The notes beneath the pieces were generated by a model that ran no database searches, had not been told where the DNA came from, and saw only the letters and a list, made by a program, of their open reading frames with translations. The translations under genes were made by a program, and so were the position numbers. From Variovorax paradoxus (GTDB lineage: Bacteria; Pseudomonadota; Gammaproteobacteria; Burkholderiales; Burkholderiaceae_C), in NCBI GenBank assembly GCA_016806145.1, contig CP063167.1, positions 1,236,501-1,300,500 of the forward strand: a stretch of 64,000 bases of DNA. Reading direction: 5' to 3'. Shown here one piece after another: positions 29,900-51,476 of the stretch. Position 1 is the stretch's first letter, and each line of letters starts with the position of its first letter.

Positions 29900-30508
29900 T
29901 TAGTTCGCGACTTTTTCGGGGAGCAGTTGATCGTCAGCTCGGTGCAACCCAATTCCGTCAAAGAACAGATCTACCAAGTGCGCGATACGCGCTTTTCCGC
30001 TGTGGGACTGCTCGACAGCAAGAGAGATCGCCGTGACCATGCACAACAGATCGTCCAGGGACAGATCCTCGCGAATCGCTCCCGCTTCTTGCGCACGCTG
30101 GAGCAGCCGCAGACCCTCATCGCTCCCCGCTTTGCAGCCGGGAGTGCCGCTTTTAAGTACCGCGCCCAGCGATGCAGCTAGTCCGTGATAGTGGCTGGCA
30201 TGCATCACGAGCGCTCGAACGAAAGCGCGTATGGAGGCTGTGGGTTCGGGCGCAGGGTCTGCGGCTCGACTCGCCGCTGCGAGCGACAACAGGCGCTCAT
30301 CGCTCAGTGCGGCAAGCAGGGCCTCGCGCGTCGGGAAGCGGCGATAAAGCGTCCCGATCCCCACCTTCGCACGCTTGGCAACATCGTCGAGCGAGGCATC
30401 AGCACCACGCTCGAGAAACACCTCTTCGGCAGCTGCAAGGATACGCTCCCGATTGCGCGCTGCATCGGCGCGTAGTGGCGCCTCATCGGTGGCAGGACTT
30501 TCTTTCAT
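29900..30508 (-). CDS. TetR-family repressor
   Basis: 202 residues. The N-terminal helix-turn-helix is textbook (RERILAAAEEVFLERGADA, VGIGTLYRRFPTREALL); the ligand domain is helical. It is divergent from an SDR gene across a 101-base region filled by three operator-like repeats, so it should repress both itself and the SDR gene. Confidence 0.93.
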   Translation of the reverse strand: MKESPATDEAPLRADAARNRERILAAAEEVFLERGADASLDDVAKRAKVGIGTLYRRFPTREALLAALSDERLLSLAAASRAADPAPEPTASIRAFVRALVMHASHYHGLAASLGAVLKSGTPGCKAGSDEGLRLLQRAQEAGAIREDLSLDDLLCMVTAISLAVEQSHSGKARIAHLVDLFFDGIGLHRADDQLLPEKVAN

Positions 30509-30524
30509 ATCCGGTCTTGGTTAC

Positions 30525-30593
30525 AAGTGGATGATAGCTCCGCTTCAAAAGTGGATGGTTCCTCCATATAATAAGTGGAGGAATACTCCACTT
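30525..30593. promoter_or_regulatory. Three tandem TetR operator-like elements with a 24-base period
   Basis: Three 21-base elements start at 30525, 30549 and 30573. Each opens with AAGTGGA, has a 5-base spacer after the eighth base, and continues CTCC. The third is a perfect inverted repeat (AAGTGGAG and CTCCACTT). The even spacing fills the whole TetR-SDR intergenic region. Confidence 0.75.
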
Positions 30594-30609
30594 TAGAGAT
30601 GAGGTACGC

Positions 30610-31359
30610 ATGGGCAAGCGATTTATAGACAAAGTTGTAGCGATTACCGGTGGCAGCGAAGGCATCGGACTGGCAACTGCCAAGCTCTTCGCCGCAGAGG
30701 GCGCGCGGGTCTACGTCACCGGACGCAGACAGGAGCGACTCAACGACGCCGTCCGGGAAATTGGCAACGGTGCTATCGGCGTACAGGGAGATGCCGCGAA
30801 CCTCACCGACCTCGATCGCCTCTACGAGCGCATTCAGCGCGAGAGCGGCAAGCTGGATGTTGTGTTTGCCAACGCTGGCATCGCCGAGGGCGAGCCGCGC
30901 CCGCTGGGCACGATTGACGAAGCCGGCTTTGACCGCCTATTCGACTTGAATGTACGTGGCGTGCTTTTTACCGTGCAGAAGGCATTGCCACTGATGACTG
31001 CTGGCGCCGCAGTCATCCTGAACGGCTCGGTCGCCGGCAGTAAAGGCTTTCCCGACCAAACGCTCTACAACGCGAGCAAGGCGGCAGTGCGTTCGTTCGC
31101 GCGAACCTGGACGGCCGACCTGAAGGAGCGCGGAATCCGCGTCAACGTGGTATCGCCGGGCGGCACTGAGACCAGCCTGATGCGTAGCTACCTTGATTCG
31201 CGACCGGGCGTCGAAGACATGCTGAAGCAGGTCGTGCCTCTCGGTCGCCTGGGTCAGCCAGACGAGATCGCGCGCGCCGTGCTGTTCCTTGCATCACATG
31301 AGAGCAGCTACATTGCCGGCATTGAACTCTTCGTGGATGGCGGCTCGATCGCTGTTTGA
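30610..31359 (+). CDS. Short-chain dehydrogenase/reductase
   Basis: 249-residue classical SDR. Cofactor motif ITGGSEGIG, ANAG motif as FANAGIAEG, catalytic Tyr and Lys in YNASKAAV, and PGG after strand 6. C-terminal LFVDGGS is typical. The substrate is unknown. TetR-SDR pairs of this kind often respond to reactive small molecules or quinone-like compounds; that is a general tendency, not shown here. Confidence 0.92.
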   Translation: MGKRFIDKVVAITGGSEGIGLATAKLFAAEGARVYVTGRRQERLNDAVREIGNGAIGVQGDAANLTDLDRLYERIQRESGKLDVVFANAGIAEGEPRPLGTIDEAGFDRLFDLNVRGVLFTVQKALPLMTAGAAVILNGSVAGSKGFPDQTLYNASKAAVRSFARTWTADLKERGIRVNVVSPGGTETSLMRSYLDSRPGVEDMLKQVVPLGRLGQPDEIARAVLFLASHESSYIAGIELFVDGGSIAV

Positions 31360-34081: not shown

Positions 34082-35047
34082 ATGAACGTTAGGCAACTGC
34101 GCTACTTTCTCCAAATCGCCGAACTCGGCAGCGTGACGCGCGCTGCGGAGGTCTTGCACATCGCCCAGCCGGCGCTGTCGCGTCAGATGCGCTCGCTCGA
34201 AGAAGACCTCGATGCGACGCTGCTACACCGTTCCGAACGTGGTATCACGCTGACGGAGGCTGGGGAATGTCTTCGCGGAAGTGCCGTCGAACTGCTGCGC
34301 CATTTCGATCGGGTCCGCTCCGAGGTCCGAGATCGGTCCGGTGACGCCAGCGGTGAGCTCACGATCGCGCTGCCTCCGTCCATGTCGGAGTTGCTCGCGT
34401 TTCCGGTCGTACAGCGATTCAGGACCAGTTTTCCTAACGTCTTGCTGAGGGTATTCGAAGGATCAAGCGGAGTGCTCGACGCCTGGTCAATGGTCGCACA
34501 GGGCAGGGCCGACCTGGCAGTGGTCGCCTCCGGGGAACCCCTCGCCAGTCTTGAGGCCTTCCCTTTCATCGAAGAGCCAATGTGTCTGATCGGCCCAGCC
34601 GAATCAGGTCTTTCCATGGACAAGCCGTTGGCCCTGGAAGATCTTGTCGATCGGCCGATGGTTGCGATGAGCCGCCCGAATGTGGGACGCATGATCGTGG
34701 AAAGCGCGATGGCCGAACGGAATTTGCGCCTCAACATTGCGATGGAGGTCAACACTCGGCAACTGGTGTTGAGGGCGGTGGAATCGGGCTTGGGGTTCAC
34801 GACCCTGCCGGTGTGCTCCGGGAGCGACCTGCTTGAGCGTGGTGCCATCTCCATGGCACCCATCAAGGACGTGATGATCTCCTGGCTTCTGATAAAAGGC
34901 CGCGAACAAGGTTTGTCCGTTGCGGGCCAGCGCATGCAACTCATGCTGCGGCAAGTCGCCCATGAGCAGATATCAGGCGGTCGCTGGCCACTTGCCAGAC
35001 TGAAGGGGTTCATCCCGTCAGGGACGGACGTTGCTCGCCTGCCTTGA
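34082..35047 (+). CDS. LysR-type regulator of the catabolic cluster
   Basis: 321 residues. The N-terminal helix-turn-helix is MNVRQLRYFLQIAELGSVT, AAEVLHIAQPALSRQMRSLE. The effector domain resembles NAC/CbbR-like regulators (GELTIALPPSMSELLAFPV). The start at 34082 overlaps no other gene. It is transcribed in the same direction as the Bug receptor gene 108 bases downstream. The palindrome repeated in front of three units of this cluster is the likely binding site. Confidence 0.92.
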   Translation: MNVRQLRYFLQIAELGSVTRAAEVLHIAQPALSRQMRSLEEDLDATLLHRSERGITLTEAGECLRGSAVELLRHFDRVRSEVRDRSGDASGELTIALPPSMSELLAFPVVQRFRTSFPNVLLRVFEGSSGVLDAWSMVAQGRADLAVVASGEPLASLEAFPFIEEPMCLIGPAESGLSMDKPLALEDLVDRPMVAMSRPNVGRMIVESAMAERNLRLNIAMEVNTRQLVLRAVESGLGFTTLPVCSGSDLLERGAISMAPIKDVMISWLLIKGREQGLSVAGQRMQLMLRQVAHEQISGGRWPLARLKGFIPSGTDVARLP

Positions 35048-35172
35048 CGTGACACCGGGATCGGCATGGTCGCCATGCCGAGAAAGCATTTCCGCCGCCA
35101 TTGCCTCGTTGCTAACCTCTTCTCCAGTCTAATTACTACTAGAGGAGACAGTCGTATGAACAGGCGAAACAT
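35048..35172 (+). repeat. Leader duplication, copy A (in front of Bug gene)
   Basis: About 125 bases closely resembling 44026-44150, with no length difference between the first base and the ATG (107 bases in both). It holds the palindrome, AAAGCATTTCCGCCG, GCTAACCT and the start ATGAACAGGCGAAACAT. This is the presumed parent copy, because here the frame continues into a full gene. Confidence 0.85.
35062..35080. promoter_or_regulatory. Palindrome GGCATG-N5-CATGCC, copy 1
   Basis: CGGCATGG and CCATGCCG separated by TCG. It lies 94 to 76 bases before the Bug start codon and recurs at 36212-36228 and 44040-44058. Candidate operator for the LysR regulator encoded directly upstream. Confidence 0.7.
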
Positions 35173-36124
35173 GATCGCCGGGTCGCTGGCGTCGATGCTG
35201 GGAACCCAACTGCGCGCGCAGGGCGGCAACGGCTATCCGCACCGTCCGGTAACGCTCATTTTCCCCTTTCCCCCTGGATCGCCGGGGGATGCGGAAGCGC
35301 GAGAGATCGGCATCTCGATGCAGAAGGCGACTGGTCAGCCGCTCGTCATGGACTATCGCCCCGGCGCAAGCGGCATTATCGGCACGCAGCTCGCCCAGCG
35401 AGCTGCACCGGACGGCTACACGCTGCTGTACGGCTCGACGACATCGATCGTGACGGGACCCGCCGTCACCATGAAGTCCCCCTATAGCGGGACAACCGAC
35501 TTTGAGCCGCTCACGGGAATCGGTCGGATCGACGGGCTCCTGGTTGTGCCGGCCAATTCCAAGTACCACACGGCGCAGGAGCTTGCCGAAGCGCTCAAGG
35601 CAAATCCAGGCAAGTTGAACTACGGCACGATCGGGCCCGGCTCGATGTCGCACCTGATCGGCGAGCTCTACCTGCGGACCGTTGGCGCGAAGGCGACGCC
35701 TGTCGCGTACAAGGGAACACCGCAGGCCTTGCAGGCGCTGGTTGCCGGAGAAATCGACTTTCTCGCGGACAGTGTGGCGTCAGCCGGCGGCCTCATCGAC
35801 GCTGGAAGGGTTCGTCCGCTGGCGGTGGCAACCAGCAAGCGCCTGTCACAGTTGCCTGATGTCCCGACACTCACTGAGACCGGACTCAAATTGGTACTCG
35901 GGGTGTGGCTCGGGTTGTTTGCGCCGAAAGGGACGCCTCGCTCGGTGCTGGATCAATGGGCGCTATGCGCGAGCGACTATCTGCGCGACGCGGACGTGCG
36001 TTCGAAGTTGCTTGCGAGGGGGATAGAGCCGACTCCGAGCACGCCCCAGGAATTTGCGCGTCAGGTTGCGGCAGACGAGGCGCAGTGGCGGCCGCTCATC
36101 AGGTCGTTGAACATCCAGACTTGA
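35156..36124 (+). CDS. Bug/TctC-family periplasmic solute receptor
   Basis: 322 residues, with AGAGGAGA before the ATG at 35156. A short Tat-like or Sec signal (MNRRNMIAGSLASMLG) is followed by PVTLIFPFPPGSPGDAEAR, the family signature VAYKGTPQALQALVAGEID and LADSVASAGGLIDAGRVRPL. It binds a carboxylate in the periplasm; no TctA/TctB genes accompany it. A strong terminator follows, so it is a transcription unit of its own, although the flanking genes share its operator. Confidence 0.92.
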   Translation: MNRRNMIAGSLASMLGTQLRAQGGNGYPHRPVTLIFPFPPGSPGDAEAREIGISMQKATGQPLVMDYRPGASGIIGTQLAQRAAPDGYTLLYGSTTSIVTGPAVTMKSPYSGTTDFEPLTGIGRIDGLLVVPANSKYHTAQELAEALKANPGKLNYGTIGPGSMSHLIGELYLRTVGAKATPVAYKGTPQALQALVAGEIDFLADSVASAGGLIDAGRVRPLAVATSKRLSQLPDVPTLTETGLKLVLGVWLGLFAPKGTPRSVLDQWALCASDYLRDADVRSKLLARGIEPTPSTPQEFARQVAADEAQWRPLIRSLNIQT

Positions 36125-36144
36125 GAGTTTCGAGTCCGAATACA

Positions 36145-36176
36145 GCGGGCGACCTTTTGGTCGCCCGCTTTTTTTT
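36145..36176 (+). terminator. Rho-independent terminator after Bug gene
   Basis: GCGGGCGACC and GGTCGCCCGC form a perfect 10-base stem with a TTTT loop followed by eight T. It lies 20 bases after the receptor stop. Confidence 0.93.
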
Positions 36177-36211
36177 GCCTTTCCGCCCATCGCATACACG
36201 CCACTGTCCAG

Positions 36212-36228
36212 GGCATGCCAGCCATGCC
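36212..36228. promoter_or_regulatory. Palindrome GGCATG-N5-CATGCC, copy 2
   Basis: GGCATG, spacer CCAGC, CATGCC, located 72 bases before the hydrolase start and after the terminator. It implies a new regulated promoter for the hydrolase operon. Confidence 0.65.
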
Positions 36229-36300
36229 ACGACAGTATTTCCCGAGCGGGCATGCAATTCCTATTCTTGCCGGCATGGAAAGACAAAAAAGGACGACGCA

Positions 36301-38058
36301 ATGAACCCAATGAAAGAGACTGAAGCTGCCGCGATCATCGACGCCATCGTTGTGGACTGGGACGTCCCCATCACGATGGATGATGGAACGGTTCTGCGTG
36401 CCGATGTTTTTCGTCCGGTGGAGGAAGGGCGCTATCCCGTACTGCTGAGCTATGGACCCTACGGCAAAGGACTGGCCTTCCAGGAGGGCTATCCGGCTGC
36501 TTGGGAGGGCATGGTCCGCAGCCACCCCGATGTGGCAGAGGGATCCAGTGGCCGGTACCAGAACTGGGAGACGGTCGACCCCGAGAAATGGGTGTGCGAT
36601 GGTTATGTGTGCATCCGCATCGACAGCCGCGGCGCCGGTCGCTCGCCCGGATTGTTGGATCCCTGGTCAGAGCGAGAGATCAGCGACATTTGCGAGTCGA
36701 TTGCTTGGGCTGCAGCACAGCCATGGAGCAGCGGCAAGGTCGGCATGAACGGGATCTCCTACTACGGCGTGAACCAGTGGTTCACTGCATCGCGCCGTCC
36801 TCCGTCGCTGTCGGCGATCTGTGTCTGGGAAGGTGCAGCCGACATCTATCGGGACGCAGTGCGCCACGGTGGCATCCCTTGCACGGCGTTGTGGAAGTCC
36901 TGGTACGGACCGCAGGTCGTGAACGTCCAGCACGGCGCCGGTGACCGCGGGCCGCGCAGTCGCGTGACAAGTGAGCTGGTTGCGGGTCCGGAGACACTGG
37001 ATGACGAGACTCTTCGCTCTAACCGAGTGGACCTTGGGCACGAACTGACGAGCCGACCCCTCCCGGACTCGTATTTCGAGGCGCGGTCGGGACGATGGGA
37101 CTGCGTTGACGTACCGCTCCTCTCGGCGGGCAATTGGGGAGGGCTCGGCCTGCATCTGCGAGGCAATATCGAAGGGTTCACGCAAGCGAGCTCGAAGCAG
37201 AAGTGGCTCGAGGTGCATGGCGGCGATCACTGGTCTTCGTTCTACATCGCCAGTTCGGTCGCTCTGCAAAAGAGGTTCTTTGATCACTTCCTAAAAGGAG
37301 CTGACAACGGCTGGGACGCCGAACCTCCGGTGAATCTGAACATCCGGCACGTGGACCGTTTCGTCGCTCGGAAGGAGCAGGCATGGCCCATTCCGGACAC
37401 GCGATGGACCCCGTATTACCTGGAGCCGGGGCAGGCGGCCCTTGGCAGCTCCGTCCCGGTGGACAACGCTTCCGTCACCTACGAGGCCCTTGGGCCGGGC
37501 TTGGTATTCATGCTGCCGCCCTCGACCAGTGAACTCGAGGTAACGGGCCCCTTGGCAGCTCGCCTCTACATTTCTTCCGAGACCACCGACGCGGATCTCT
37601 TTCTCACCGTTCGCCTGTTCACGCCCGACATGAAGGAGGTCACCTTCCAGGGCGCCAACGACCCTAACACGCCGATCGCGCAGGGGTGGCTGCGTGCGTC
37701 GCACCGGAAGCTGGACGCGGATCGTTCCAAACCCTGGCGCCCCTGGCATGCGCACGACGAGATCCTTCCACTCGTGCCTGGCGAAGTTTATCCAGTCGAC
37801 GTGGAGATCTGGCCGACCAGCATCGTCGTCCCCCCGGGCTACCGATTGGCGCTGAGCATCCGTGGCAAGGACTTCGAGTACGCGGGCCCACCCGTGATGG
37901 CGTTGCACCCCGCACACGAAATGCGAGGCTGTGGAGCGTTCGTTCATGACGACGAGCGGGACCGTCCGCGGTCAGTTTTCGGGGGGAAGGTAACGATCCA
38001 CACTGGCCCGTCGCACCCGTCATCTGTCCTTCTGCCCGTGATCCCGACGCGGGCGTGA
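36301..38058 (+). CDS. CocE/NonD-family serine hydrolase
   Basis: 585 residues, normal for the X-Pro dipeptidyl-peptidase S15 / CocE / NonD family. The N-terminal alpha/beta-hydrolase has DGTVLRADVFRPVEEGRYPVLL, IRIDSRGAGRSPG and the nucleophile elbow GISYYG; a C-terminal jelly roll has LYISSETTDADLFLTVRL. Such enzymes cleave esters, amides or, as NonD, macrocyclic ester bonds. There is no signal peptide, so it acts in the cytoplasm. AAGGACG precedes the ATG. It heads a seven-gene run and should make the first cut on the imported compound. Confidence 0.92.
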   Translation: MNPMKETEAAAIIDAIVVDWDVPITMDDGTVLRADVFRPVEEGRYPVLLSYGPYGKGLAFQEGYPAAWEGMVRSHPDVAEGSSGRYQNWETVDPEKWVCDGYVCIRIDSRGAGRSPGLLDPWSEREISDICESIAWAAAQPWSSGKVGMNGISYYGVNQWFTASRRPPSLSAICVWEGAADIYRDAVRHGGIPCTALWKSWYGPQVVNVQHGAGDRGPRSRVTSELVAGPETLDDETLRSNRVDLGHELTSRPLPDSYFEARSGRWDCVDVPLLSAGNWGGLGLHLRGNIEGFTQASSKQKWLEVHGGDHWSSFYIASSVALQKRFFDHFLKGADNGWDAEPPVNLNIRHVDRFVARKEQAWPIPDTRWTPYYLEPGQAALGSSVPVDNASVTYEALGPGLVFMLPPSTSELEVTGPLAARLYISSETTDADLFLTVRLFTPDMKEVTFQGANDPNTPIAQGWLRASHRKLDADRSKPWRPWHAHDEILPLVPGEVYPVDVEIWPTSIVVPPGYRLALSIRGKDFEYAGPPVMALHPAHEMRGCGAFVHDDERDRPRSVFGGKVTIHTGPSHPSSVLLPVIPTRA

Positions 38059-38083
38059 TTCATCTGTCCTGGAGACTACTTTT

Positions 38084-39013
38084 GTGAAGCAACAGCGAGT
38101 AATCATCAGCTGCGCGGTGACAGGCGGCGTGCATACGCCCACAATGACGCCGCACCTGCCGATCACCCCCCAACAAATCGCGGATGCAGCCGTGGGCGCT
38201 GCCGAGGCTGGCGCCGCCATCATCCACTTGCACGCGCGAGACCCCGTTACGGGGCGGCCGGACCAGTCGCCGGAAGCATTCGGCAAGTTCTTGCCGCAGA
38301 TCAAGGAGCGATGCGACGCGGTGATCAACATCACCACGGGCGGTGCGCCGGGCATGGCTGTAAGCGAGCGCATTCGGCCTGTGATCGAGTTCAAGCCGGA
38401 AGTCGCCTCGCTGAACATGGGGTCGATGAACTTCGGCATGTATCCCATGCTGGAGCGCTTCAGCAACTTCAGGTTCGATTGGGAGGCTCCGTTCCTGGAG
38501 AGCACCCGCGACCTCGTGTTCAGGAACACCTTCAAAGATATCGAGCACATCCTGGGGGTGGGGTCCGAGGCGGGCACGCGTTTCGAGTTTGAGTGCTACG
38601 ACACCGCGCACCTGTACAACCTTCGACATTTTCTGGACCGCGGAATGTTGAAGGCCCCTCTCTTCATTCAATCTGTCCTCGGCATTCTGGGAGGGGCGGG
38701 GACGCACCCGGAGGATGTGATGCACATGAAGCGGACAGCCGACCGGCTGTTCGGCGATCAGTACCACTGGTCAGTGATCGGAGCAGGCGCCGCGCAGATG
38801 CGAGTGGCGGCGCAGGCGGCAACGATGGGCGCAAATGTGCGCGTCGGCCTGGAGGACTCGATCTGGCTTGGCCCCGGCAAGCTGGCTGAGTCGAATGTGG
38901 ATCAGGTCCGGGCCGTGAGAAAGCTGATCGAAGGATTGGGGCTGGAGATCGCGTCTGCCGAGGAGGCCCGCGAGCGCCTGCACCTCAAGGGCGCTGCAGG
39001 TGTCAACTTCTGA
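38084..39013 (+). CDS. Beta-keto acid cleavage enzyme (BKACE/Kce family, DUF849)
   Basis: 309 residues from the GTG at 38084, which has GGAG nine bases upstream. Family motifs: AVTGGVHTPTMTPHLPITP, the zinc histidines in IIHLHARDP, INITTGGAPGM and LNMGSMNFG. BKACE proteins combine a beta-keto acid with acetyl-CoA to give acetoacetate and a new CoA thioester. Acid specificity varies within the family and cannot be read here. An SDR and an acyl-CoA synthetase in the same operon fit oxidation to a beta-keto acid and activation of the product. Confidence 0.93.
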   Translation: MKQQRVIISCAVTGGVHTPTMTPHLPITPQQIADAAVGAAEAGAAIIHLHARDPVTGRPDQSPEAFGKFLPQIKERCDAVINITTGGAPGMAVSERIRPVIEFKPEVASLNMGSMNFGMYPMLERFSNFRFDWEAPFLESTRDLVFRNTFKDIEHILGVGSEAGTRFEFECYDTAHLYNLRHFLDRGMLKAPLFIQSVLGILGGAGTHPEDVMHMKRTADRLFGDQYHWSVIGAGAAQMRVAAQAATMGANVRVGLEDSIWLGPGKLAESNVDQVRAVRKLIEGLGLEIASAEEARERLHLKGAAGVNF

Positions 39014-39023
39014 AGGAACGAAT

Positions 39024-39770
39024 GTGTCGAAAGTGCTTGTTGTGACCGGTTCCAGCCGGGGTATCGGTGCCGCGATTGCGCTCCTCGGGGCGAAAGAGGG
39101 GTACGGGGTCGCGGTGAACTACCGCAGTGATCGTGATGGCGCGGAAGCGCTCGTCCGAAATATTGCGCGCCAAGGAGGCAGGGCCGCTGCCGTCTGCGCG
39201 GATGTGTCGACCAGTGCCGGAGCCGCGAAGCTTTTCGCCGAAGTCGATCAGACATTGGGCAGCGTCTCCGTGCTGGTGAACAACGCCGGCATCTCCGGCA
39301 GCCGGTGCGCTATCGATGCAATCGACGAGGACAGGCTGCAGCGGATCTTCGAGACGAACGTGTTTTCCGCCTTCTTCTGCTCCCGCGAAGCGGTCAGGCG
39401 CATGAGCCGCACCAGCGGAGGCGAAGGCGGATCGATCGTGAACATCTCATCGGCTGCGGCACGGCACGGCGGTATGCCCGAACTTGCTCACTATGCGTCC
39501 ACCAAAGCCGCGTTGGACGGCATGACCATCGCGCTGGCCAAGGAGCTCGGGCCGCAGGGCGTTCGGGTCAACAGCCTTCGACCGGGTGTGATCGTCACCG
39601 AAATGCACGATGAGTTCGGAGGCGCAAAACTCATCGAAAGCATTGCGCCTACGATTCCGATGCAACGCCCGGGCACGGTGGACGAAGTCGCTGAGGCTGT
39701 GCTTTGGCTGGCGTCGGAACGCTCATCGTACGTCCATGGTGCTGTCATCGATATCACGGGCGGAAGATAA
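39024..39770 (+). CDS. Short-chain dehydrogenase/reductase
   Basis: 248-residue SDR. TGSSRGIG, VNNAGISG, YASTKAAL with catalytic Tyr/Lys, and the C-terminal GAVIDITGGR are intact. The start is read as GTG at 39024 with AAGGA eight bases upstream, ten bases after the BKACE stop; an in-frame GTG at 39000 would overlap it. It may oxidise a beta-hydroxy acid to the beta-keto acid that BKACE cleaves. Confidence 0.9.
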   Translation: MSKVLVVTGSSRGIGAAIALLGAKEGYGVAVNYRSDRDGAEALVRNIARQGGRAAAVCADVSTSAGAAKLFAEVDQTLGSVSVLVNNAGISGSRCAIDAIDEDRLQRIFETNVFSAFFCSREAVRRMSRTSGGEGGSIVNISSAAARHGGMPELAHYASTKAALDGMTIALAKELGPQGVRVNSLRPGVIVTEMHDEFGGAKLIESIAPTIPMQRPGTVDEVAEAVLWLASERSSYVHGAVIDITGGR

Positions 39771-39771
39771 G

Positions 39772-40125
39772 ATGCTCTTCGAGATGCGGACCTACCAGGT
39801 GCTGCCGTCCCGCCTGAAGGACTACCTCAGCATCTACGCAGAGAAGGGCAAGTCGCTTCAGTGTGAAGTCCTTGGGCACTTGGCCGGGTGCTACATGACC
39901 GAGGTCGGTGACCTGAACCAGGTGATCTTCATTTGGGGGTTCAGTTCGTTCGAGGACCGTGTGCGCCGGCGTGGCGCGCTCGCCGCGCTTCCTGCGTGGC
40001 AAGCGTACGTCGCACAGGTCGCTCCTCTCTTCGTCCGTCAGGAGAGCAGGCTGCTGATGCCGGCAGCTTTCGGCGAGGCTGCGCCGATGAAGGACGAGAT
40101 GTGGCATTCGCGGGACGTCGGTTAA
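39772..40125 (+). CDS. NIPSNAP-family protein
   Basis: 117 residues beginning MLFEMRTYQVLPSRLKDYL, the NIPSNAP opening, then GHLAGCYMTEVGDLNQVIFIW. It begins one base after the SDR stop. Its role is unknown, but it belongs to the operon by spacing. Compare the NIPSNAP gene at 23094, also inside a catabolic operon. Confidence 0.9.
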   Translation: MLFEMRTYQVLPSRLKDYLSIYAEKGKSLQCEVLGHLAGCYMTEVGDLNQVIFIWGFSSFEDRVRRRGALAALPAWQAYVAQVAPLFVRQESRLLMPAAFGEAAPMKDEMWHSRDVG

Positions 40126-40128
40126 GCG

Positions 40129-40842
40129 ATGCCGCGCCCGCTTGTCGCCGCACTGGTGTGCGGCAGTCCCCACCGTAACCACGATTTTGATTTCGCGCGG
40201 CTGCGGCTCGGCCAGGCTCTCTACGACGCTCACGGCATTCGCACCGATTGCTACAACGACTATGAGGAGTCGGCTGACCTCCTCGGCGCCGACCTGCTCG
40301 TCAGCTACACGTCGCAGGTACCGGTGAGTGAAAAAGCGAGTGCAGCGATCCGGCGCTTCCTCGATCGAGGCGGGCGCTGGTTCGCGTTGCATGCGACCAA
40401 TTCGGTCGCGGGCAATCAGGCGATGCCGAGCATCCTCGGCACACGCTTCATTTCACATCCGAAGTACATGACCTTCCCGGTCAAAGTGACGCGGCAGGAA
40501 GAGCCGCTGCTAAAAGGCATCCGCGATTTCGACGTGTCCGACGAGCTGTATTGCATCGAGGATGTCACCAGGGACCTCGACGTGTTGCTCCACGCGCACT
40601 GGGGCGGTGAAGCGTTCGGCGGCATTCATTTCGAGGAGGCCGATCGCCCGATCCTCTACCGCCGGACAGTCGGCGATGGCGGCGTGCTCTATCTCGCGCT
40701 CGGCCACGCCAACCGGCCCTATGACAAGCTGTTTCCGCACCTGCCCGATCAGCTCGACCATCGGGGCCCCTGGGACCTACCGATGTTCCAAGAGCTGGTG
40801 AAGCGTGGCGTCGAATGGGCGGCACAGCGGCGCCCGTTCTGA
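40129..40842 (+). CDS. ThuA-like (trehalose utilisation) family protein
   Basis: 237 residues of class I glutamine amidotransferase-like fold. VCGSPHRNHDFDFARLRL, LLVSYTSQVP, GRWFALHATNS and VLYLALGHANRPYD are recognisable. In ThuA proteins the residue after LH in this loop is often the place of an expected nucleophile; here it is Ala (LHATN). Family members act in sugar metabolism, often with unknown chemistry. It begins three bases after the NIPSNAP stop, so it is co-translated with the operon. Confidence 0.85.
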   Translation: MPRPLVAALVCGSPHRNHDFDFARLRLGQALYDAHGIRTDCYNDYEESADLLGADLLVSYTSQVPVSEKASAAIRRFLDRGGRWFALHATNSVAGNQAMPSILGTRFISHPKYMTFPVKVTRQEEPLLKGIRDFDVSDELYCIEDVTRDLDVLLHAHWGGEAFGGIHFEEADRPILYRRTVGDGGVLYLALGHANRPYDKLFPHLPDQLDHRGPWDLPMFQELVKRGVEWAAQRRPF

Positions 40843-40911
40843 CCACACCCCGCCGCTCGTGCCCGGTCTTTCGAGTGGCGAGCCTTGCAACCATTCGACT
40901 CGGCGTTCAAA

Positions 40912-42057
40912 GTGAAAAACAAATTCTCAGACGAATCTCTTCAACTGCGCTCTGTTGTCACTCATGGAGGGCAGGTTGTGCTTTCTCTTGTCAGAGAAGC
41001 GCTGCCAGCTCTGAAGCCTGAAGATGTGCTCATTCGCGTCGAGGCCGCTCCAATCAACCCGTCCGACATTGGCTCGATGCTTGGCGCCGCGGACCTCAGT
41101 CTGGCGTGGACTGCTGACGGTGCTGCTGGGCCGGAACTTGTGGCGCCTGTACCTGCAGCATCCCTGCCGGCGATGCGATCGAGCAGGGCTGCTTTCATGT
41201 CGGTCGGTCTCGAAGGGGCAGGTACGGTCGTGGCGGCAGGAAGTTCACATGCTGCACAGTCCTTGATGGGGAAAACGGTTGCAGCGATGGCCGGGGGCAT
41301 GTACGCGCGCTATCGTTGTGTAGCGGCGGCAGAATGTCTCGTGCTCCCCGAGGGCACCAGTGCGGTAGAGGCTGCCTCCTGCTTCGTCAATCCCCTCGCC
41401 GCGTTAGGGATGGTGGAGACGGCTCGCAGGGAGGGCCACACGGCGATTGTCCAAACGGCTGCTGCCTCGAATCTCGGACAGATCCTTCTTCGAATCTGCC
41501 TTGCTGATGGTGTCCCGCTCGTCAACGTGGTGCGGTCGCAGCAGCAAGAGGAACTCTTGCGCGCGCAGGGCGCCCGCTACGTGTGCAACTCGAGTTCCGG
41601 CGATTTCAGAGATCGACTTGTTGACGCCATTGCGGCCACGGGGGCAACGATTGTCTTGGACCCCATTGGAGGGGGTAGCGGCGGGCAGATTTTGAGCTGC
41701 ATGGAGGTGGCCATCAGCCGCCGTCCCGGTCAGGCAGCCTCCCGCTACGGCTCGGAAGTTCTTAAACAGTTGTATGTGTACGGCGCTCTCGATCCTCGCC
41801 CCATCGAGATACCGCGCGACATCGGTGCTGCATGGGCCGCTGGCGGATGGCTTCTTCTGCGGTACCTCAAGGTGACGCAGCCGCAAATCCTCGACAGGCT
41901 CAAAGCTCGGGTTGCCGCAGAAGTCAAGACCACGTTTGCGAGCCACTACGCCCGAGGCATTTCGCTGAAGGAGGTCATCTCACCGGAGGTCCTCAAGGTC
42001 TGCGCACATCCCGCGACAGGAATGAAATTCCTGATCGAGCCCTGGAAAAACTGTTGA
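40912..42057 (+). CDS. Zinc-binding-dehydrogenase-like (MDR) oxidoreductase
   Basis: 381 residues if started at the GTG 40912; a TTG at 40885 would add nine. The MDR fold shows LIRVEAAPINPSDIGSM, VGLEGAGTVVAAG and the NAD(P)-binding stretch TAAASNLGQILLRI. Structural-zinc cysteines are absent, so it is probably a zinc-independent reductase (2-haloacrylate reductase or quinone-oxidoreductase like). It lies 69 bases after the ThuA-like gene in the same direction. Confidence 0.87.
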   Translation: MKNKFSDESLQLRSVVTHGGQVVLSLVREALPALKPEDVLIRVEAAPINPSDIGSMLGAADLSLAWTADGAAGPELVAPVPAASLPAMRSSRAAFMSVGLEGAGTVVAAGSSHAAQSLMGKTVAAMAGGMYARYRCVAAAECLVLPEGTSAVEAASCFVNPLAALGMVETARREGHTAIVQTAAASNLGQILLRICLADGVPLVNVVRSQQQEELLRAQGARYVCNSSSGDFRDRLVDAIAATGATIVLDPIGGGSGGQILSCMEVAISRRPGQAASRYGSEVLKQLYVYGALDPRPIEIPRDIGAAWAAGGWLLLRYLKVTQPQILDRLKARVAAEVKTTFASHYARGISLKEVISPEVLKVCAHPATGMKFLIEPWKNC

Positions 42058-42221
42058 CCGAGTCGTCGGAAATGCCGAGCTCGAATCCGCTGGCCGCAAG
42101 AGCGCACGGCGTCTGTTATCTGGAAATGGGAACTCTCCGCATCCGGGCGCCACGCGTTCGTCGAAGTCCTTCGGAGATCACGACCGGGCTCAACTTCCTT
42201 GCGACTGAATAGGTGACATCC

Positions 42222-43850
<1,629 letters not shown>

Positions 43851-44025
43851 ACCGGCGCCGAGCTCGAAGATGGTCGCGAAGCTCGTTGACTGTCGAGCGC
43901 CTGGGGCCGCGGTTCTGGCGTCGCCCCTGGACTGCGGCCTGTCTTTAGCGCACCGCTCCGGTTGCGGTTGACCGTGCGAAGTTCGAGTCGTTCACCCGCG
44001 CTGCCGTCCACCTCAGTTCCGGGAT

Positions 44026-44150
44026 CGTGACACCCGGATCGGCATGGCCTCCATGCCGAGAAAGCATTTCCGCCGCTATTCCCTCGTCGCTAACCTTTGC
44101 TTCAGTCACATCATCAATGGCGAAGACGGTCGCATGAACAGGCGAAACAT
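44026..44150 (+). repeat. Leader duplication, copy B (in front of mhpD)
   Basis: Ungapped near-copy of 35048-35172, including the palindrome at 44040-44058 (CGGCATGG, CCT, CCATGCCG), the promoter-proximal region and the first codons of a Bug gene. The spacer between palindrome arms has changed but both arms are intact, which suggests that the palindrome is under selection. Confidence 0.85.
44040..44058. promoter_or_regulatory. Palindrome GGCATG-N5-CATGCC, copy 3
   Basis: Arms CGGCATGG and CCATGCCG with spacer CCT, about 280 bases before mhpD. Third occurrence in the cluster; it suggests that mhpDFE is controlled with the LysR-Bug-hydrolase genes. Confidence 0.65.
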
Positions 44151-44338
44151 CGTCGCGGTGAGCGACATTGCCTGCGCGGCCAGTTGATCGCCGAGCTGCT
44201 TTCTTCGTCTCGACATCTTGAGAAGAGGCCAGATGAAATTGCCGTCCTTCGCTCTTGTTCGGGGCCTCCTCTCGACGACTTGACGCAACCCGGCGCGATG
44301 CGCTGCCCCACCCAACCCCCCACCAACAGAGATCATCC

Positions 44339-45139
44339 ATGCAACATCTATCCGACCCCGCCGAAGCCTTAGCGGCGGCGCTGCGCGACGCCGAGCATCA
44401 GCGCTCCCCCTGCACGCCGTTGCGGCACCAAGCCGAGTCCCTCGGCTGGTCGGTGACTCAGGAGAACGCCTATACCGTGCAGCGCATCAACGAGGCGCGC
44501 CGCATATCGAGCGGCGATCGCGTCACGGGCCGCAAGATCGGGCTTACTGCCGCCAGCGTGCAGCGACAGCTTGGCGTAGACCAGCCGGACTACGGCGCGC
44601 TCTGGAGCTCCACGGCCTTTGGCGACGGCGCGGAGATTCCGCTGACCGGCTTTATTCGGCCCAAGGTGGAAGCCGAAGTCGCGATCGTGCTCGACAAGGA
44701 TGTGACGGCCGCCGACGCAACCTTGGCCGACCTCTTCGCGGCCACGGCCTATGCGGTGCCTGCGCTCGAAATCGTGGACAGTCGCATCGCGGCCTGGGAC
44801 ATACACCTGTTCGACACCATCGCCGATAACGCATCGGCCGCCGGCTACGTACTGGGCGCGGACCCGAAACGACTGGATCGGCTGAGTCTGCGCGATGCCG
44901 GCATGACACTGACCGAAGACGGCCGCAGCGTGAGCCAGGGCAGCGGCGGCGAGTGCATGGGCCATCCCTTGAATGCTGCTGTCTGGCTGACGCGGCAACT
45001 GGCCCGGCTCGGCACCCCGCTGCGCGCCGGCGATGTCGTACTGACCGGGGCGCTCGGACCGATGGTGACGATCACTGCGCCCTCGTTCTTCGAGGCGCAT
45101 ATTGAAGGTCTCGGCCGCGTCGCGGCGCGGTTCGCGTGA
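44339..45139 (+). CDS. mhpD: 2-keto-4-pentenoate hydratase (MhpD/4-oxalocrotonate decarboxylase family)
   Basis: 266 residues. [27 protein letters not shown], the metal-ligand [12 protein letters not shown] and [15 protein letters not shown] mark the hydratase/decarboxylase family of meta-cleavage pathways. It adds water to 2-hydroxypenta-2,4-dienoate to give 4-hydroxy-2-oxovalerate. A decarboxylase role cannot be excluded. It is the first gene of a three-gene unit with mhpF (17-base gap) and mhpE. Confidence 0.9.
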
Positions 45140-45156
45140 ACATGCAAGGAACCTCC

Positions 45157-46110
45157 ATGAACAAGATCAAAGCTGCCATCATCGGCAGTGGAAACATCGG
45201 CACCGATCTGATGATCAAGGCCCTGCGCGGCGCACGGAACCTCGAGGTGGTCGTGCTAGCCGGCATCGATGCAAACTCCGACGGCCTCGCGCGTGGGCGC
45301 CGCCTCGGCGTGGCAACTACCGACCAGGGGGTCGAGGGCCTCGCGCGACATCCCGCCTTCGGCGACATCGACATCGTGTTCGACGCAACCTCGGCTGCCG
45401 CGCACGTCCGCAACGACGCCTTCCTGCGCGAGCTCAAGCCGGCCCTCCGCATGGTGGACCTCACGCCGGCCGCCATCGGTCCCTACTGTGTCCCTGTGGT
45501 GAACCTTGAAGAACACCTGGACGCGCTAAACCTCAACATGGTCACATGTGGCGGTCAGGCGACCATTCCCATCGTGCATGCCGTCTCGCAAGTGGCGACC
45601 GTGCACTATGCCGAGATCGTCGCGTCGGTGTCGAGCCGCTCTGCGGGCCCGGGCACGCGGGCCAACATCGACGAGTTCACCGAGACCACGGCCCGCGCTA
45701 TCGAAGTTGTGGGAGGGGCGAGGCGGGGCAAGGCCATCATTATTCTTAACCCTGCAGAGCCGCCACTGCTGATGCGCGACACCGTCTACACGCTGAGCGT
45801 GGGCAGTGACGAGGCCGCAATCGAAGACTCGGTGCAGGCCATGGTGGCGGCCGTGGAGGGGTACGTGCCGGGCTACCGCCTCAAGCAAGCCGTGCAGTTC
45901 GAACACATTCCGCCCGGGCAGGCGCTGCAGATTCCCGGCGTGGGAGGGCTTGCCGGACTGAAGACTTCCGTGTTCCTACAGGTGGAAGGCGCGGCGCACT
46001 ACCTGCCGGCGTATGCGGGCAACCTCGACATCATGACCAGTGCCGCGCTCGCGAGCGGCGACCGCATCGCGGCGCGCCTGCTGGCCACCCGTGCCATGGC
46101 GAACGCGTGA
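45157..46110 (+). CDS. mhpF: Acetaldehyde dehydrogenase, acylating
   Basis: 317 residues from the ATG at 45157, where AAGGA is well placed; GTG and ATG codons just upstream are rejected. Rossmann motif [14 protein letters not shown], catalytic Cys in [15 protein letters not shown], and [20 protein letters not shown] are intact. It turns acetaldehyde and CoA into acetyl-CoA and channels its substrate from the aldolase encoded next. Confidence 0.95.
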
Positions 46111-46120
46111 GGAGAATTCC

Positions 46121-47173
46121 ATGAATGACAAAAAGATCTACATTTCTGATGTGACCCTGCGCGATGGCAGTCACGCCATCCGGCACCGGTACACCGTGGA
46201 GCAGGTGGCGCAGATCGCGGCCGCGCTCGATGCAGCGGGCGTTGACTCCATCGAGGTCGCCCACGGCGACGGGCTCGCCGGCTCCAGCTTCAATTACGGC
46301 TTTGGCGCACACACCGACGTCGAGTGGATCGCCGCGGCGCGCAACGCCGTTCGTCGGGCGCGCATCGCCACCCTGCTCGTGCCAGGCATCGGCACCGTGC
46401 ACGACCTGAAGGCCGCCCACGCGGCCGGTGCCAGCGTGGTGCGCGTGGCGACGCATTGCACGGAAGCCGACGTCGCAAAGCAGCACATCGAGACCGCGCG
46501 CGAGCTTGGCATGGACACCGTCGGCTTCCTCATGATGAGTCACATGACCAGCGCGGCAGAGCTCGCGCAGCAGGCGCTGAAGATGGAAAGCTACGGTGCC
46601 ACCTGCGTTTACGTCGTCGACTCGGGCGGAGCCTTGGGCATGCAGGACGTGCGTGACCGCTTCCGCGCCCTCAAAGACGTATTGCGCACGGAGACGGCGA
46701 CCGGTATGCATGCCCACCACAACCTCAGCCTCGGCGTAGCCAACAGCATCGTAGCCGTGGAGGAAGGCTGCGATCGCGTAGACGCGAGCCTGGCTGGAAT
46801 GGGCGCCGGCGCCGGTAACGCGCCGCTCGAGGTCTTCGTGGCCGCGGCCGAGCGGCTGAATTGGGATCATGGCTGCGACGTCAAGGCGCTGATGGATGCG
46901 GCCGACGATATCGTGCGGCCATTGCAAGATCGGCCCGTTCGGGTAGACCGGGAGACTCTGTCGCTTGGCTATGCCGGTGTCTACTCCAGCTTCCTGCGGC
47001 ATGCGGAAGCCGCCGCGTCACGTTACGGCCTGCCGGCCGTCGAGATTCTGCTCGAACTTGGACGGCGCCGTATGGTTGGCGGTCAAGAAGACATGATTGT
47101 GGACGTCGCGCTCGACCTCGCGCGGTCGCGTGACGCCGACTCCGCTACCGATGTCGCTGCGGCAGTCGCCTGA
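46121..47173 (+). CDS. mhpE: 4-hydroxy-2-oxovalerate aldolase
   Basis: 350 residues. [16 protein letters not shown] with the catalytic Arg/Asp/His, the metal histidines in [15 protein letters not shown] and [12 protein letters not shown] are characteristic of DmpG/MhpE. It cleaves 4-hydroxy-2-oxovalerate to pyruvate and acetaldehyde. GGAG precedes the ATG by six bases. It ends the meta-cleavage lower pathway; no ring-cleaving dioxygenase is in the window. Confidence 0.95.
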
Positions 47174-47291: not shown

Positions 47292-49847
47292 CTACCAACT
47301 GTACCCAGCGGTCACATAGACGCTGCGACGCTCGCCGTAGTAGCAGCCGGTCGACGACAGGCAGGTCGCCACATAGGTCTTGTCCGCAAGGTTGGACACG
47401 TTCAGCGCCAGGCGTAGGCCCTTGAGCGACGGGCGCCAGCGCCCGAGGTCCCAGCGCAGGGCCGCATCCATGAGGGTCACACCGGGCACGCGGAACTGGT
47501 TCGCGGCATCGCCGTAGGTGGTGCTGATGCGGCGCACGCCCGCGCCCAGCGACAGCCCGGGCGCGATCTCCATCGGAAAGGCGTAGTCCAGCCACAGGGC
47601 CGCCTGGTGCTCGGGCACATAGGGGAAGCGCTTGCCCAGGGTGCTGGCACCCGACGCGTTGGCGTTGGCACGCGTGACCCGGCTGTCGGTGTAGGCATAG
47701 GAGGCGATGACATCCAGGCCGCGCGTGAGCGGTGCCTTGGCTTCCAGCTCGAGGCCGCGCACACGCACCTCGCCGGTCTGCTCGCTGAACGATCGGCTCA
47801 GTGGATCCGGGGTCAGCACATTGCGCTGCGTCAGCTCATAGACGGCTGCCGTCACCATGGCCTTGGATCCGGCCGGTTGGTACTTCAGACCGGCCTCGAT
47901 CTGCCGGCCCGTGGTGGGCTCGAAGGGATTGCCCTGCCGGTCGGTGCCGGCGGCCGGCTGGAACGAGGTGCTGTAGCTCAGGTAGGGCGCGAAGCCACTG
48001 TCGAAGTTGTACATGAGCGCGGCGCGCCCGGTGAACTTGTCGTCGTGCTGGTCGACGGGTGCCATGCGCGCCGTCGCGGTCGTCAGCGTGCGGGTGTCGG
48101 TGTCGGCCTTGTCGTAGCGGCCGGCCAGCACGAGGCTCCAGCGGTCCAGGTGGATCTGGTCCTGCAGGTAGAAGCCGGTCTGGCGACGCTTCTGGTCGAT
48201 ATGGGTCGCGACGCCGGGCACGGCGCCGGAATCGGTGCCGAAGACCGGGAGGTAGGCGTTGAAGGGCCGCGTGATGATGCGCAGGTTGGTCTCGTCGAAC
48301 GCGGACTTCTCATTGGAGAAGTCCACGCCGGCGAGCAGCGTGTGCCGCAACGTGCCGGTGGCGAAGTCCGCCTGCAGCTGCGTGTCGGCGGTCAGCAGGC
48401 TGGCCTCTTCTGGAAAGGCCCATGCGTAGCGCAGCAGCGAGGACGGGTTGCAGGCCGCCAGGCAGACGGCCTGAATGCGTTGGGTGTACGCGTCGACCTT
48501 GCCGTAGCGCAGGTTCTGGCGCACCGTGAAGGTGTCGTTGAAGCGGTGCTCGAATTCGTAGCCCACGAAGCGCTGCCGGTTGCTGAAGCGGTCGTAGCCT
48601 GGTTCGCCGACGAAGGTGCGCGTGGGTAGGGCAGCGTAGCGGCTGGTGTCGAGGGTGCCCGCGGCGGGCAGTGCCGGCGCGCCGCCGCCACCAGGGGAGT
48701 CGAGCGACTGCCATTGGCCGAGCACCGTGAGACGTGTGGCGCTGGAAGGGCGGAAGGTCAGCGACGGGGCGAAGTAGGTCTTGCGCTCGGAAACGTGGTC
48801 GTAGGAGGTGTTGGCCTCTCGGTGCAGCGCGACCAGCCGGTAGCTCCAGACGCCATCGGCATCGATGGCACCGCCGAGATCGAGCGCTGCCTGGCGCCGG
48901 TTGTGGCTGCCGAACTGCAGCTCCACCTCGCGCACCGGCTCGAGCGTGGGGCGCTTGCTGACCATGTTCACCAGCCCGCCAGGCGTCGCCTGCCCGTAGA
49001 GCACCGACGACGGCCCCTTGACGACCTCGACGCGTTCCAGCCCCCAGGGCTCGATGCGCGGCTGCGAGTAGCCGCGCGCGCCGAAAGGCAGGCGCAGGTT
49101 GTCCAGGTAGCGCGCGGGCGGCGTGAAGCCTCGCAAGGTGAGCCAGTCCAGGCGCAGGTCGGTGTTGCCGTATTGAGCGACGATGCCCGGCGTATAGCGA
49201 AGGCTCTCGACCAGCGTGGTCGCGCCCTGCGCGTCCATCTGGTCGCGCGTCACGACGGACACCGACTGCGGCGTCTCCATCAGGGGCGTGTCGGTCTTGG
49301 TGCCCGAGACGCTGCGCCGTGCGATGAAGCCGGACACCGGGCCGGTGCCGGTCTCGCGGCTCGCCTGGGGCTCCACGACGATCGCCGGCAGCGACCCGGC
49401 CGAGGGCTGACCCGCTGCCGACGGGCTGGCGGGGCGCGATGCATCGCGCTGCAGGGAGTAGATGTTGTCGCCCGTGCGAGTCGCCCTTAGGCCGCTGCCC
49501 TGGAGGGCCGTTGCGAGCGCTTCCTGCAGGGTGAAGCGTCCGCGCAGGCCGGGGCTGTCGAGCCCGGCGGTGAGGGATGCATCGACCGACAGCAGGATGC
49601 CCGACTGGCTGGCGAGCTGCGTGAGAACGCCGGCCAGCGGACCGGGCGCGAGGGCGTAGTCGCGCGCGGTCTGCTCCGTGGGCGACTGGGCGAGCGCCGG
49701 GTTGGCATGGAGGACGACGACGGCGGCAGGCAGGATGGCGAGCGCCGTGCCCAGCGCGCGCGCCGCGAGGGTGGTACGACGCAGGCGTGAGCGGGGCGGT
49801 CGCGCGGGGCGCACGCCATGGAGGGAGGAAGTCGAGAGGTCGCGCAT
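47292..49847 (-). CDS. TonB-dependent siderophore receptor with STN signalling domain
   Basis: 851-residue outer-membrane transporter. After a long signal region ending NPALAQ comes an STN domain (about 60-130: GPLAGVLTQLASQSGILLSVD), then the plug (TPQSVSVVTRDQMD, LRGFTPPARYLDNLRLPFG, VEVVKGPSSVLYGQATPGGLVNMVSKRP) and the beta barrel, ending VTAGYSW. Such receptors import ferric siderophores and signal through FecR. The start at 49847 matches the signal peptide; upstream frame is a shadow. It follows fecR by 86 bases. Confidence 0.95.
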   Translation of the reverse strand: MRDLSTSSLHGVRPARPPRSRLRRTTLAARALGTALAILPAAVVVLHANPALAQSPTEQTARDYALAPGPLAGVLTQLASQSGILLSVDASLTAGLDSPGLRGRFTLQEALATALQGSGLRATRTGDNIYSLQRDASRPASPSAAGQPSAGSLPAIVVEPQASRETGTGPVSGFIARRSVSGTKTDTPLMETPQSVSVVTRDQMDAQGATTLVESLRYTPGIVAQYGNTDLRLDWLTLRGFTPPARYLDNLRLPFGARGYSQPRIEPWGLERVEVVKGPSSVLYGQATPGGLVNMVSKRPTLEPVREVELQFGSHNRRQAALDLGGAIDADGVWSYRLVALHREANTSYDHVSERKTYFAPSLTFRPSSATRLTVLGQWQSLDSPGGGGAPALPAAGTLDTSRYAALPTRTFVGEPGYDRFSNRQRFVGYEFEHRFNDTFTVRQNLRYGKVDAYTQRIQAVCLAACNPSSLLRYAWAFPEEASLLTADTQLQADFATGTLRHTLLAGVDFSNEKSAFDETNLRIITRPFNAYLPVFGTDSGAVPGVATHIDQKRRQTGFYLQDQIHLDRWSLVLAGRYDKADTDTRTLTTATARMAPVDQHDDKFTGRAALMYNFDSGFAPYLSYSTSFQPAAGTDRQGNPFEPTTGRQIEAGLKYQPAGSKAMVTAAVYELTQRNVLTPDPLSRSFSEQTGEVRVRGLELEAKAPLTRGLDVIASYAYTDSRVTRANANASGASTLGKRFPYVPEHQAALWLDYAFPMEIAPGLSLGAGVRRISTTYGDAANQFRVPGVTLMDAALRWDLGRWRPSLKGLRLALNVSNLADKTYVATCLSSTGCYYGERRSVYVTAGYSW

Positions 49848-49933
49848 GGAGGCTTTGAGCAAATGGAAGGGTTGGTACCTTCCTTGCCACGCGACGGTCG
49901 CAAAAGGGGAACCCGCGCCGCGAATTTTTTTTT

Positions 49934-50950
49934 TCAGTGGCGGTTGTCGGGGCCCTGCGCGGGCTCGATGGTCACCCACCATGGCAGCACGCGGTTCACC
50001 CGTACCGGGAGGGTGGCTTGAAGCGCCGCGAGGATCCGGTCGGTGTCGGCCAGCGGATAGCTGCCCACGATCCGCAGGTCGCGAACCGCCGGGGCGCAGG
50101 CGAGGTGGCCGCGCCGGTGGCGCGCCAGCGCATCGATGAAGTCGCCCAGGCGCATGTCGTTGGCGACAAGCTGGCCGCGCGTCCAGCTGTCGCTGCCCGC
50201 GTCCGCGGCCGCCGGTGCTTCGACGCGGTCGACGAACAGCCGGGTCTGCTCGTTGGCGCGCAGCGTCCGCGACGGCCCGCCCCGGGCGGGCTGGACGCGC
50301 ACCCCGCCTTTGAACACCGTGACGAGTGCCGCGTCGGCAGCGTTGCCGTCGCCCTGCACGGTGAAGCGCGTGCCCAGCGCCGTGAGCCGTCCCTGGGCGA
50401 CCTCGACGACGAGCGGTCGATCCTCCCAGGCGGGGTCGTGTCCCGTGGACACCAGCACTTCGCCGGCATGCAGGAGGATGCGCCGATGGGTCGTCGTGAA
50501 GTCGACATCGACCGCCGAAGCGGTGTTGAGCCAGAGCCGGCTGCCGTCCTCCAGCGCGATCTCACGGCGTTCGCCGGTCTGCGTGCGGTACGTTGCCACC
50601 CATGCGCGCCAGGGCATTTCGCGTTCGAGCAGCCAGCTGGCCACGCCGGCAACGGGCAGCAAGGCCAGCACGCGCAGCGCGCTGCGACGGCGGCGCGTGG
50701 CCGTGGCCCTCGTGTCTTCGAGGATCTGGCGCGCAGGGAGATGGCGCACGGACGAGAAGTCCCGGGACACGGCCTCGACCTGCTGCCAGGCGGCACGCGC
50801 GCCGCCATCCTTGCGCAGCCATGCTTCCCAGCGCAGCCGGTCGCTCGCGGTGGCCGATTCGGACTGCAGCAGGGCGAACCAGGTCGCCGCCTGCTGAAGA
50901 TGTTCGAACGTCGCCCGGGGCTGTTCCGGGTGCGCCGAGACTGCGGTCAT
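49934..50950 (-). CDS. FecR-family anti-sigma / signal transducer
   Basis: 338 residues. DUF4880 N-terminus (TFEHLQQAATWFALLQSESA, DRLRWEAWLR), one membrane segment near residues 92-110, then the FecR domain (TGERREIALEDGSRLWLNTASAV, HAGEVLVS, FTVQG). It carries the signal from the receptor STN domain to the sigma factor. The start overlaps the sigma gene stop by four bases. Confidence 0.95.
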   Translation of the reverse strand: MTAVSAHPEQPRATFEHLQQAATWFALLQSESATASDRLRWEAWLRKDGGARAAWQQVEAVSRDFSSVRHLPARQILEDTRATATRRRRSALRVLALLPVAGVASWLLEREMPWRAWVATYRTQTGERREIALEDGSRLWLNTASAVDVDFTTTHRRILLHAGEVLVSTGHDPAWEDRPLVVEVAQGRLTALGTRFTVQGDGNAADAALVTVFKGGVRVQPARGGPSRTLRANEQTRLFVDRVEAPAAADAGSDSWTRGQLVANDMRLGDFIDALARHRRGHLACAPAVRDLRIVGSYPLADTDRILAALQATLPVRVNRVLPWWVTIEPAQGPDNRH

Positions 50951-51456: not shown

Positions 51457-51476
51457 GGGAGCACGAAGGCGTGACA

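Follow-up and report, generated by a model that had tools for sequence, protein, structure and literature searches.

The subject of this analysis is a cluster of twelve genes at positions 34082 to 47173 of a 64,000-nucleotide stretch of Variovorax paradoxus DNA (contig CP063167.1, positions 1,236,501 to 1,300,500; hereafter the window). The cluster is, on balance, best read as a rare catabolic regulon made of three transcription units, each with its own copy of one LysR-type operator, in which the lower-pathway genes mhpD, mhpF and mhpE (mhpDFE) were recruited by duplication of the promoter of a Bug solute-binding protein gene. All twelve genes are intact open reading frames on the + strand. 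They encode, in this order, a LysR-type regulator, the Bug protein, a CocE/NonD-family hydrolase, a beta-keto acid cleavage enzyme (BKACE), an SDR dehydrogenase, a NIPSNAP-family protein, a ThuA-like protein, an MDR-family reductase, an acyl-CoA synthetase (ACS), MhpD, MhpF and MhpE.

A LysR-type operator common to three transcription units

The operator is a 30-bp LysR-type site, GCAT-N6-CATGCC-N3-R-N-R-G-N-ATTTCC, aligned from six sites in the window and in a related cluster of Burkholderiales bacterium 8X. It has the form of a GCATG/CATGC dyad, imperfect at some sites, and precedes three first genes in each of the two genomes. The window copies, all on the + strand, are found 5' of Bug (35064..35093), of CocE (36213..36242) and of mhpD (44042..44071), with -10-like elements TAACCT at 35113-35118, TATTCT at 36262-36267 and TAACCT at 44091-44096, respectively. 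At six of the six sites, the only TANNNT in the 60 bp 3' of the operator begins after 19-20 nt, and the operator would lie around the -35 region of each promoter.

Exact copies occur at three places in the 9.4-Mb genome to which the window belongs, namely 5' of Bug, CocE and mhpD, and at three places in 4.8 Mb of 8X, 5' of CocE, of a DUF1330 gene paired with an indolepyruvate-type oxidoreductase (IOR) gene, and of Bug. No site with one or two mismatches was found in either sequence, while three-mismatch sites numbered five in the window genome and eight in 8X; the backwards pattern, used as a control with up to three mismatches, gave two and zero. As the pattern had been derived from the six sites themselves, a leave-out matrix test was run against 607,460 positions of 16 loci rather than whole genomes. 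With a matrix built from the three Bug-type sites, the next in rank were the CocE pair and the IOR site (27.7, 26.7 and 19.7; background maximum 14.2), and a matrix from the two CocE sites was followed by the Bug, mhpD and IOR sites (27.9 to 20.6; background 14.5). One site appears twice in this set because locus L107 of 8X overlaps L022, and the Bug and mhpD operators of the window, which are copies of each other, are not independent and count as one.

The division into units is indicated by an intrinsic terminator 3' of Bug (36144..36169, + strand), with an 11-pair stem and a T-run. Terminator-like sites in the region number five, against 8.5 expected from shuffled sequence; stems in the remaining four are 5-6 pairs long. 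This strong terminator closes the first unit and leaves three: Bug, CocE to ACS, and mhpDFE. The LysR protein itself is 74% identical to its 8X counterpart over 312 aa (73% in the comparison by locus); its first 62 aa are identical at 55 of 62 positions versus 164 of 238 in the next stretch, as would be expected if the N-terminus binds a conserved site.

Operators with at most one mismatch were found in 6 of 399 family genomes, including the window genome, which alone has more than one site. The five others (of 398) each have a single one-mismatch site, and the 12 cluster proteins found no match in the corresponding 3-kb loci. One exact match among viral contigs was discarded, being located within a 1138-aa frame. 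In the preliminary description, the cluster, including mhpDFE, had been placed under the one LysR gene beside it; the operator common to the three transcription units agrees with this, and the existence of one regulon appears well supported.

Duplication of the Bug promoter before mhpD

Between ACS and mhpD, 131 bp (44026..44156, + strand) duplicate the Bug promoter and the Bug 5' end. The other copy (35048..35178, + strand, 131 bp) comprises the LysR-Bug intergenic promoter region and the first Bug codons, and the two are identical at 109 of 131 positions (83%). The duplicate ends in a truncated frame, a 17-codon Bug 5' remnant (MNRRNIVAVSDIACAAS*) at 44134..44187 (+ strand), which lies in the mhpDFE leader. 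It also carries the palindrome TCGGCATGG-N3-CCATGCCGA, for which the genome contains only two exact occurrences, one in each copy. With two mismatches the palindrome is found at five further places in the window genome, none of which fits the full operator motif. None of the 19 operator core positions has changed in the duplicate, compared with 22 of the 112 other positions (Fisher p=0.042). These features suggest that mhpDFE was probably captured by the duplicated Bug promoter as an accessory module; we infer the direction and the timing of this recruitment.

A related cluster in Burkholderiales bacterium 8X

A scan of genome contigs for CocE returned 139 relatives, and 80 loci were kept, several of which end at contig ends. 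Bug is a common CocE neighbour across these loci, and a BKACE gene is near CocE in one of the 80, locus L022 of 8X. This locus also holds the closest CocE relative (86% identity; the next is 61%), and the BKACE (83%), SDR (77%), NIPSNAP (74%), Bug (84%) and MDR (76%) proteins are similarly close; the 8X ACS extends beyond the end of L022 and is 78% identical. With LysR, eight of the twelve genes recur in 8X, in a different order. The DUF1330 and IOR genes lie there between LysR and Bug as a unit with its own operator, and this IOR shares only 49-54% identity with the seven IOR-family members of the window genome. No match to ThuA, mhpD, mhpF or mhpE was found in L022 or in the adjoining L107, and none to mhpE (E<=1e-10) in the 4.8 Mb of 8X, whereas this query has two matches in the window genome. 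The recurrence of eight genes with the same operator indicates more than a chance neighbourhood.

Outside these two genomes, the components are sparse. With the own genome counted, 7 of 200 sampled family genomes have CocE at E<=1e-60, the top match elsewhere being 58% identical, and 18 of 299 sampled genomes have MhpD at E<=1e-70, the top match elsewhere being 56%. For Bug at E<=1e-85, a sample of 399 genomes of the order gave a single carrier, its own. Plasmids contained no CocE or Bug at 60% identity or above, and two plasmid relatives of BKACE that were examined (L120 and L121) were set aside as belonging to other clusters. The system is rare.

The idea that all ten families of the cluster form one obligatory pathway is not supported, as the 8X block has neither mhpDFE nor ThuA nearby; an IOR unit with the same operator is present there. 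The block and mhpDFE occur together in one of the two carriers, which speaks against their being inseparable, although the shared operator makes it unlikely that they are expressed under different conditions. The one-pathway idea is partly supported: the evidence favours it where the core is concerned, and less so where mhpDFE is. That no described pathway has this gene set, as had been proposed, agrees with our finding none in the open-access PMC literature, in a search far from exhaustive.

Gene families and neighbouring genes

Family assignments were made with Pfam for ten of the proteins and, besides, with NCBIfam; together with the intact frames, they confirmed the gene order and families first read from the translations. 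The LysR-type regulator (34082..35047; PF00126 and PF03466) is the presumed activator of the three promoters. It is followed by the Bug/TctC-type periplasmic solute-binding protein (35156..36124; PF03401) and the CocE/NonD-family serine hydrolase (36301..38058; TIGR00976 at 257 bits, cut-off 66.3), in which the sequence G-I-S-Y-Y-G is present. BKACE (38084..39013) matches PF05853 at 353.6 bits (cut-off 24.8) and has an HLHAR motif (HLHARDP in the sequence), the HLH of which we take to be the metal motif. The SDR (39000..39770; PF13561/PF00106) is of the classical type, with TGSSRGIG and YASTK. Next come the small NIPSNAP-family protein (39772..40125; PF07978) and the ThuA-like protein (40129..40842; PF06283), the latter with no relative in the PDB at E<=0.01. 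No NCBIfam match was obtained for Bug, NIPSNAP or ThuA. The MDR-family NAD(P)H reductase (40885..42057; PF08240) is quinone/enoyl reductase-like, its closest PDB entry being 3iup, and the ACS (42213..43850) belongs to the PRK08162 subfamily (NF006020 at 940.5 bits, cut-off 677). All these genes, like the mhp genes described below, are on the + strand.

Upstream of the cluster, at 29900-31359, the window has a divergent pair of genes for a TetR regulator with an SbtR-like C-terminal domain and an SDR, with no operator copy. Adjoining mhpE and convergent with it, the stretch 47292-51477 on the - strand encodes a TonB-dependent receptor with an STN domain and then apparent FecR-type and ECF sigma proteins, the last two judged from translations only.

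The mhpDFE module

The three last genes encode a divergent mhpD-type 2-oxopent-4-enoate hydratase (44339..45139; PF01557), the acylating acetaldehyde dehydrogenase MhpF (45160..46110; TIGR03215 at 451.9 bits, cut-off 282) and the 4-hydroxy-2-oxovalerate aldolase MhpE (46121..47173; TIGR03217 at 574.3 bits, cut-off 286). All three enzymes of the mhp/dmp meta-cleavage type are therefore present, two of them above their NCBIfam equivalog cut-offs and MhpD below its own (PRK11342 at 324.7 bits, cut-off 350); the closest solved structure to MhpD is 8ih6, a 2-oxopent-4-enoate hydratase (279 bits). The lower pathway of the mhp operon for 3-(3-hydroxyphenyl)propionate degradation consists of these three enzymes, arranged identically. 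Unlike that operon, the window cluster has no mhpA, mhpB or mhpC, its mhpD and mhpF are not separated by a Bug gene, its mhpDFE carries the operator of the CocE block, and its MhpD is divergent. No ring hydroxylase or ring-cleaving extradiol dioxygenase is found among the 12 cluster genes, the part of the window that was scanned gene by gene.

Compared with seven family loci, MhpF is 66-76% and MhpE 80-83% identical, while MhpD is only 50-55% identical. The MhpD proteins of five of these loci (L184, L185, L186, L188 and L190) are 72-92% identical among themselves; those of L189 and L193 are also divergent (57-62% to the rest), and the divergence of the window MhpD is not unique. It could equally reflect relaxed constraint or a substrate that is different or substituted. 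In L189 (6940-11329), mhpDFE is next to a gene whose 511-aa product has a signal-like N-terminus, and no mhpABC was seen among the called frames as read, which makes it a second mhpDFE context without an obvious ring-cleavage gene.

A different account, which we consider unlikely but worth serious attention, is that the core block alone constitutes the pathway, that a second Bug gene, since lost, left its operator as a relic in front of mhpD, and that mhpDFE is an unrelated remnant of a meta-cleavage pathway. The 8X core, with no mhpDFE nearby and no mhpE in the 4.8 Mb, is consistent with this, as are the Bug start and truncated 17-codon frame in the duplicate, the distance of the operator from mhpD, and the identities of MhpF and MhpE to the family loci. 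Moreover, Bug is paired with mhp genes in 4 of the 11 family mhpD loci fetched (L184, L185, L186 and L190), though in the order mhpD-Bug-mhpF-mhpE, with Bug downstream of mhpD. A mere relic, however, accords poorly with the preservation of all 19 operator core positions and of the -10-like element in a duplicate that is otherwise at 80%, or with three intact mhp frames. Scanning the gap from ACS to mhpD for the sigma-70 consensus also revealed no promoter, although such a scan equally misses the three operator promoters.

It could also be supposed that CocE takes the place of MhpC as the hydrolase of a meta-cleavage product and feeds MhpDFE, the ring-cleaving enzyme being encoded elsewhere. 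CocE and MhpC are both Ser-His-Asp alpha/beta hydrolases, and another replicon of the genome (L140) has what appears, from sequence starts, to be a full phenol/catechol meta pathway. Yet that pathway includes separate D, F and E genes, the window genome has no fourth exact operator, and the 8X CocE (86%) is under the same operator in 4.8 Mb that contain no mhpE, all of which leaves this replacement very improbable. The second aldolase of the window genome likewise passes TIGR03217. Recruitment of mhpDFE through the duplicated Bug promoter remains the reading that we prefer.

BKACE and the class of substrate

Many BKACE and CocE clusters have, to our knowledge, no assigned substrate. The window genome contains seven BKACE genes, as many as its IOR-family genes. 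The window BKACE scores 522 bits (cut-off 430) against NF053538, the model for 3,5-dioxohexanoate:acetyl-CoA acetone transferase, and this label would suggest triacetate (3,5-dioxohexanoate) as the substrate. All seven other BKACEs tested (four of the six paralogs of the genome, L022, L120 and L121) also pass, at 518-562 bits. Assignment of the substrate from this label was rejected, as the model does not discriminate; the label says only that a beta-keto acid is cleaved.

Degradation of a phloroglucinol- or pyrone-derived polyketide, with BKACE as the triacetate acetoacetate-lyase, is an improbable alternative on these grounds, six of the seven other BKACEs being in loci without a CocE match. 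It does have a precedent. A BKACE-family triacetate acetoacetate-lyase was shown in the triacetate route of C. scatologenes, where phloroglucinol ring opening is carried out by a cyclase-family dihydrophloroglucinol cyclohydrolase (PMC10470551). The same paper describes, as in the window, a dehydrogenase beside BKACE and cleavage of a beta-keto acid with acetyl-CoA (PMC10470551). The window cluster differs from that route by adding CocE, ACS, NIPSNAP, ThuA, MDR and mhpDFE, and it is without a cyclase ring opener: no PF04199 cyclase was detected among the ten cluster proteins scanned with Pfam, and MhpF and MhpE match other families.

A PF04199 cyclase does occur, together with a fumarylacetoacetase-like protein, in a second CocE locus of the window genome (L109, 4349-11654), which favours the triacetate route to some degree. 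This locus, of which the own-genome copy was the one analysed with Pfam, encodes CocE, Bug, the cyclase, the fumarylacetoacetase-like protein, ACS and a divergent TetR, and recurs in 8X (L119). A Variovorax boronicumulans plasmid (L122) has a similar locus in a different order, with no ACS match within 10 kb. Relative to the window cluster, CocE is 48-51% and Bug 28-30% identical in the three, and ACS 75-76% in L109 and L119; the cyclase and fumarylacetoacetase replace SDR and BKACE, a TetR gene is nearby in all three, and no exact operator copy is present in any of them. Such loci possibly encode a route for cyclic-diketone breakdown. A third locus of the window genome comprises FAH, NIPSNAP, Bug and CocE, with an IOR further on. 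The grouping of CocE and Bug with a partner that activates acids or cleaves C-C bonds is thus a recurrent one in the two genomes.

Proposed pathway

In the regulon that we favour, LysR with its inducer would switch on all three promoters. Judging from the protein families, Bug would capture a carboxylate and CocE would cut an acyl ester or amide, the freed acid being converted to its CoA thioester by ACS. The SDR might then oxidise the beta-hydroxy acid portion, giving a beta-keto acid, which BKACE, with acetyl-CoA, would turn into acetoacetate and an acyl-CoA, and MDR could reduce an unsaturated intermediate. A 2-oxo acid by-product would be finished by mhpDFE as pyruvate and acetyl-CoA; in 8X, IOR would occupy a regulon slot of its own. 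An acylated beta-hydroxy acid as substrate fits CocE, ACS, SDR and BKACE, and is a guess and the weakest part of the proposal.

Several points weigh against this account. The p-value for operator conservation in the duplicate is weak, and the third operator lies 267 nt before the mhpD start and is followed by a leader that contains the truncated Bug frame, an arrangement that could hamper expression. The gap between MDR and ACS is 155 nt, and ACS could have its own promoter. LysR is linked to the operator through proximity and the dyad form, the BKACE label is too broad to define the substrate, and the proposed chemistry gives NIPSNAP and ThuA no step. Only two carriers were found, and the absence of mhpE from 8X may be incomplete, since the 4.8 Mb may represent a single scaffold and the full genome may be larger.

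A more specific and more tentative proposal, possible rather than probable, is that the cluster represents an undescribed BKACE-centred pathway. It would have a fixed core of Bug, CocE, SDR, BKACE, NIPSNAP, MDR and ACS and an exchangeable 2-oxo-acid module, IOR or mhpDFE according to the lineage, each under the same LysR operator, with mhpDFE acquired through the Bug-promoter duplication.

With three exact sites per genome, the operator may provide a near-closed enzyme list of one pathway, and its regulon offers a ready reporter for an inducer search. The duplicated promoter ahead of mhpDFE would clearly exemplify how a bacterium adds a stock lower-pathway module to an existing regulon.

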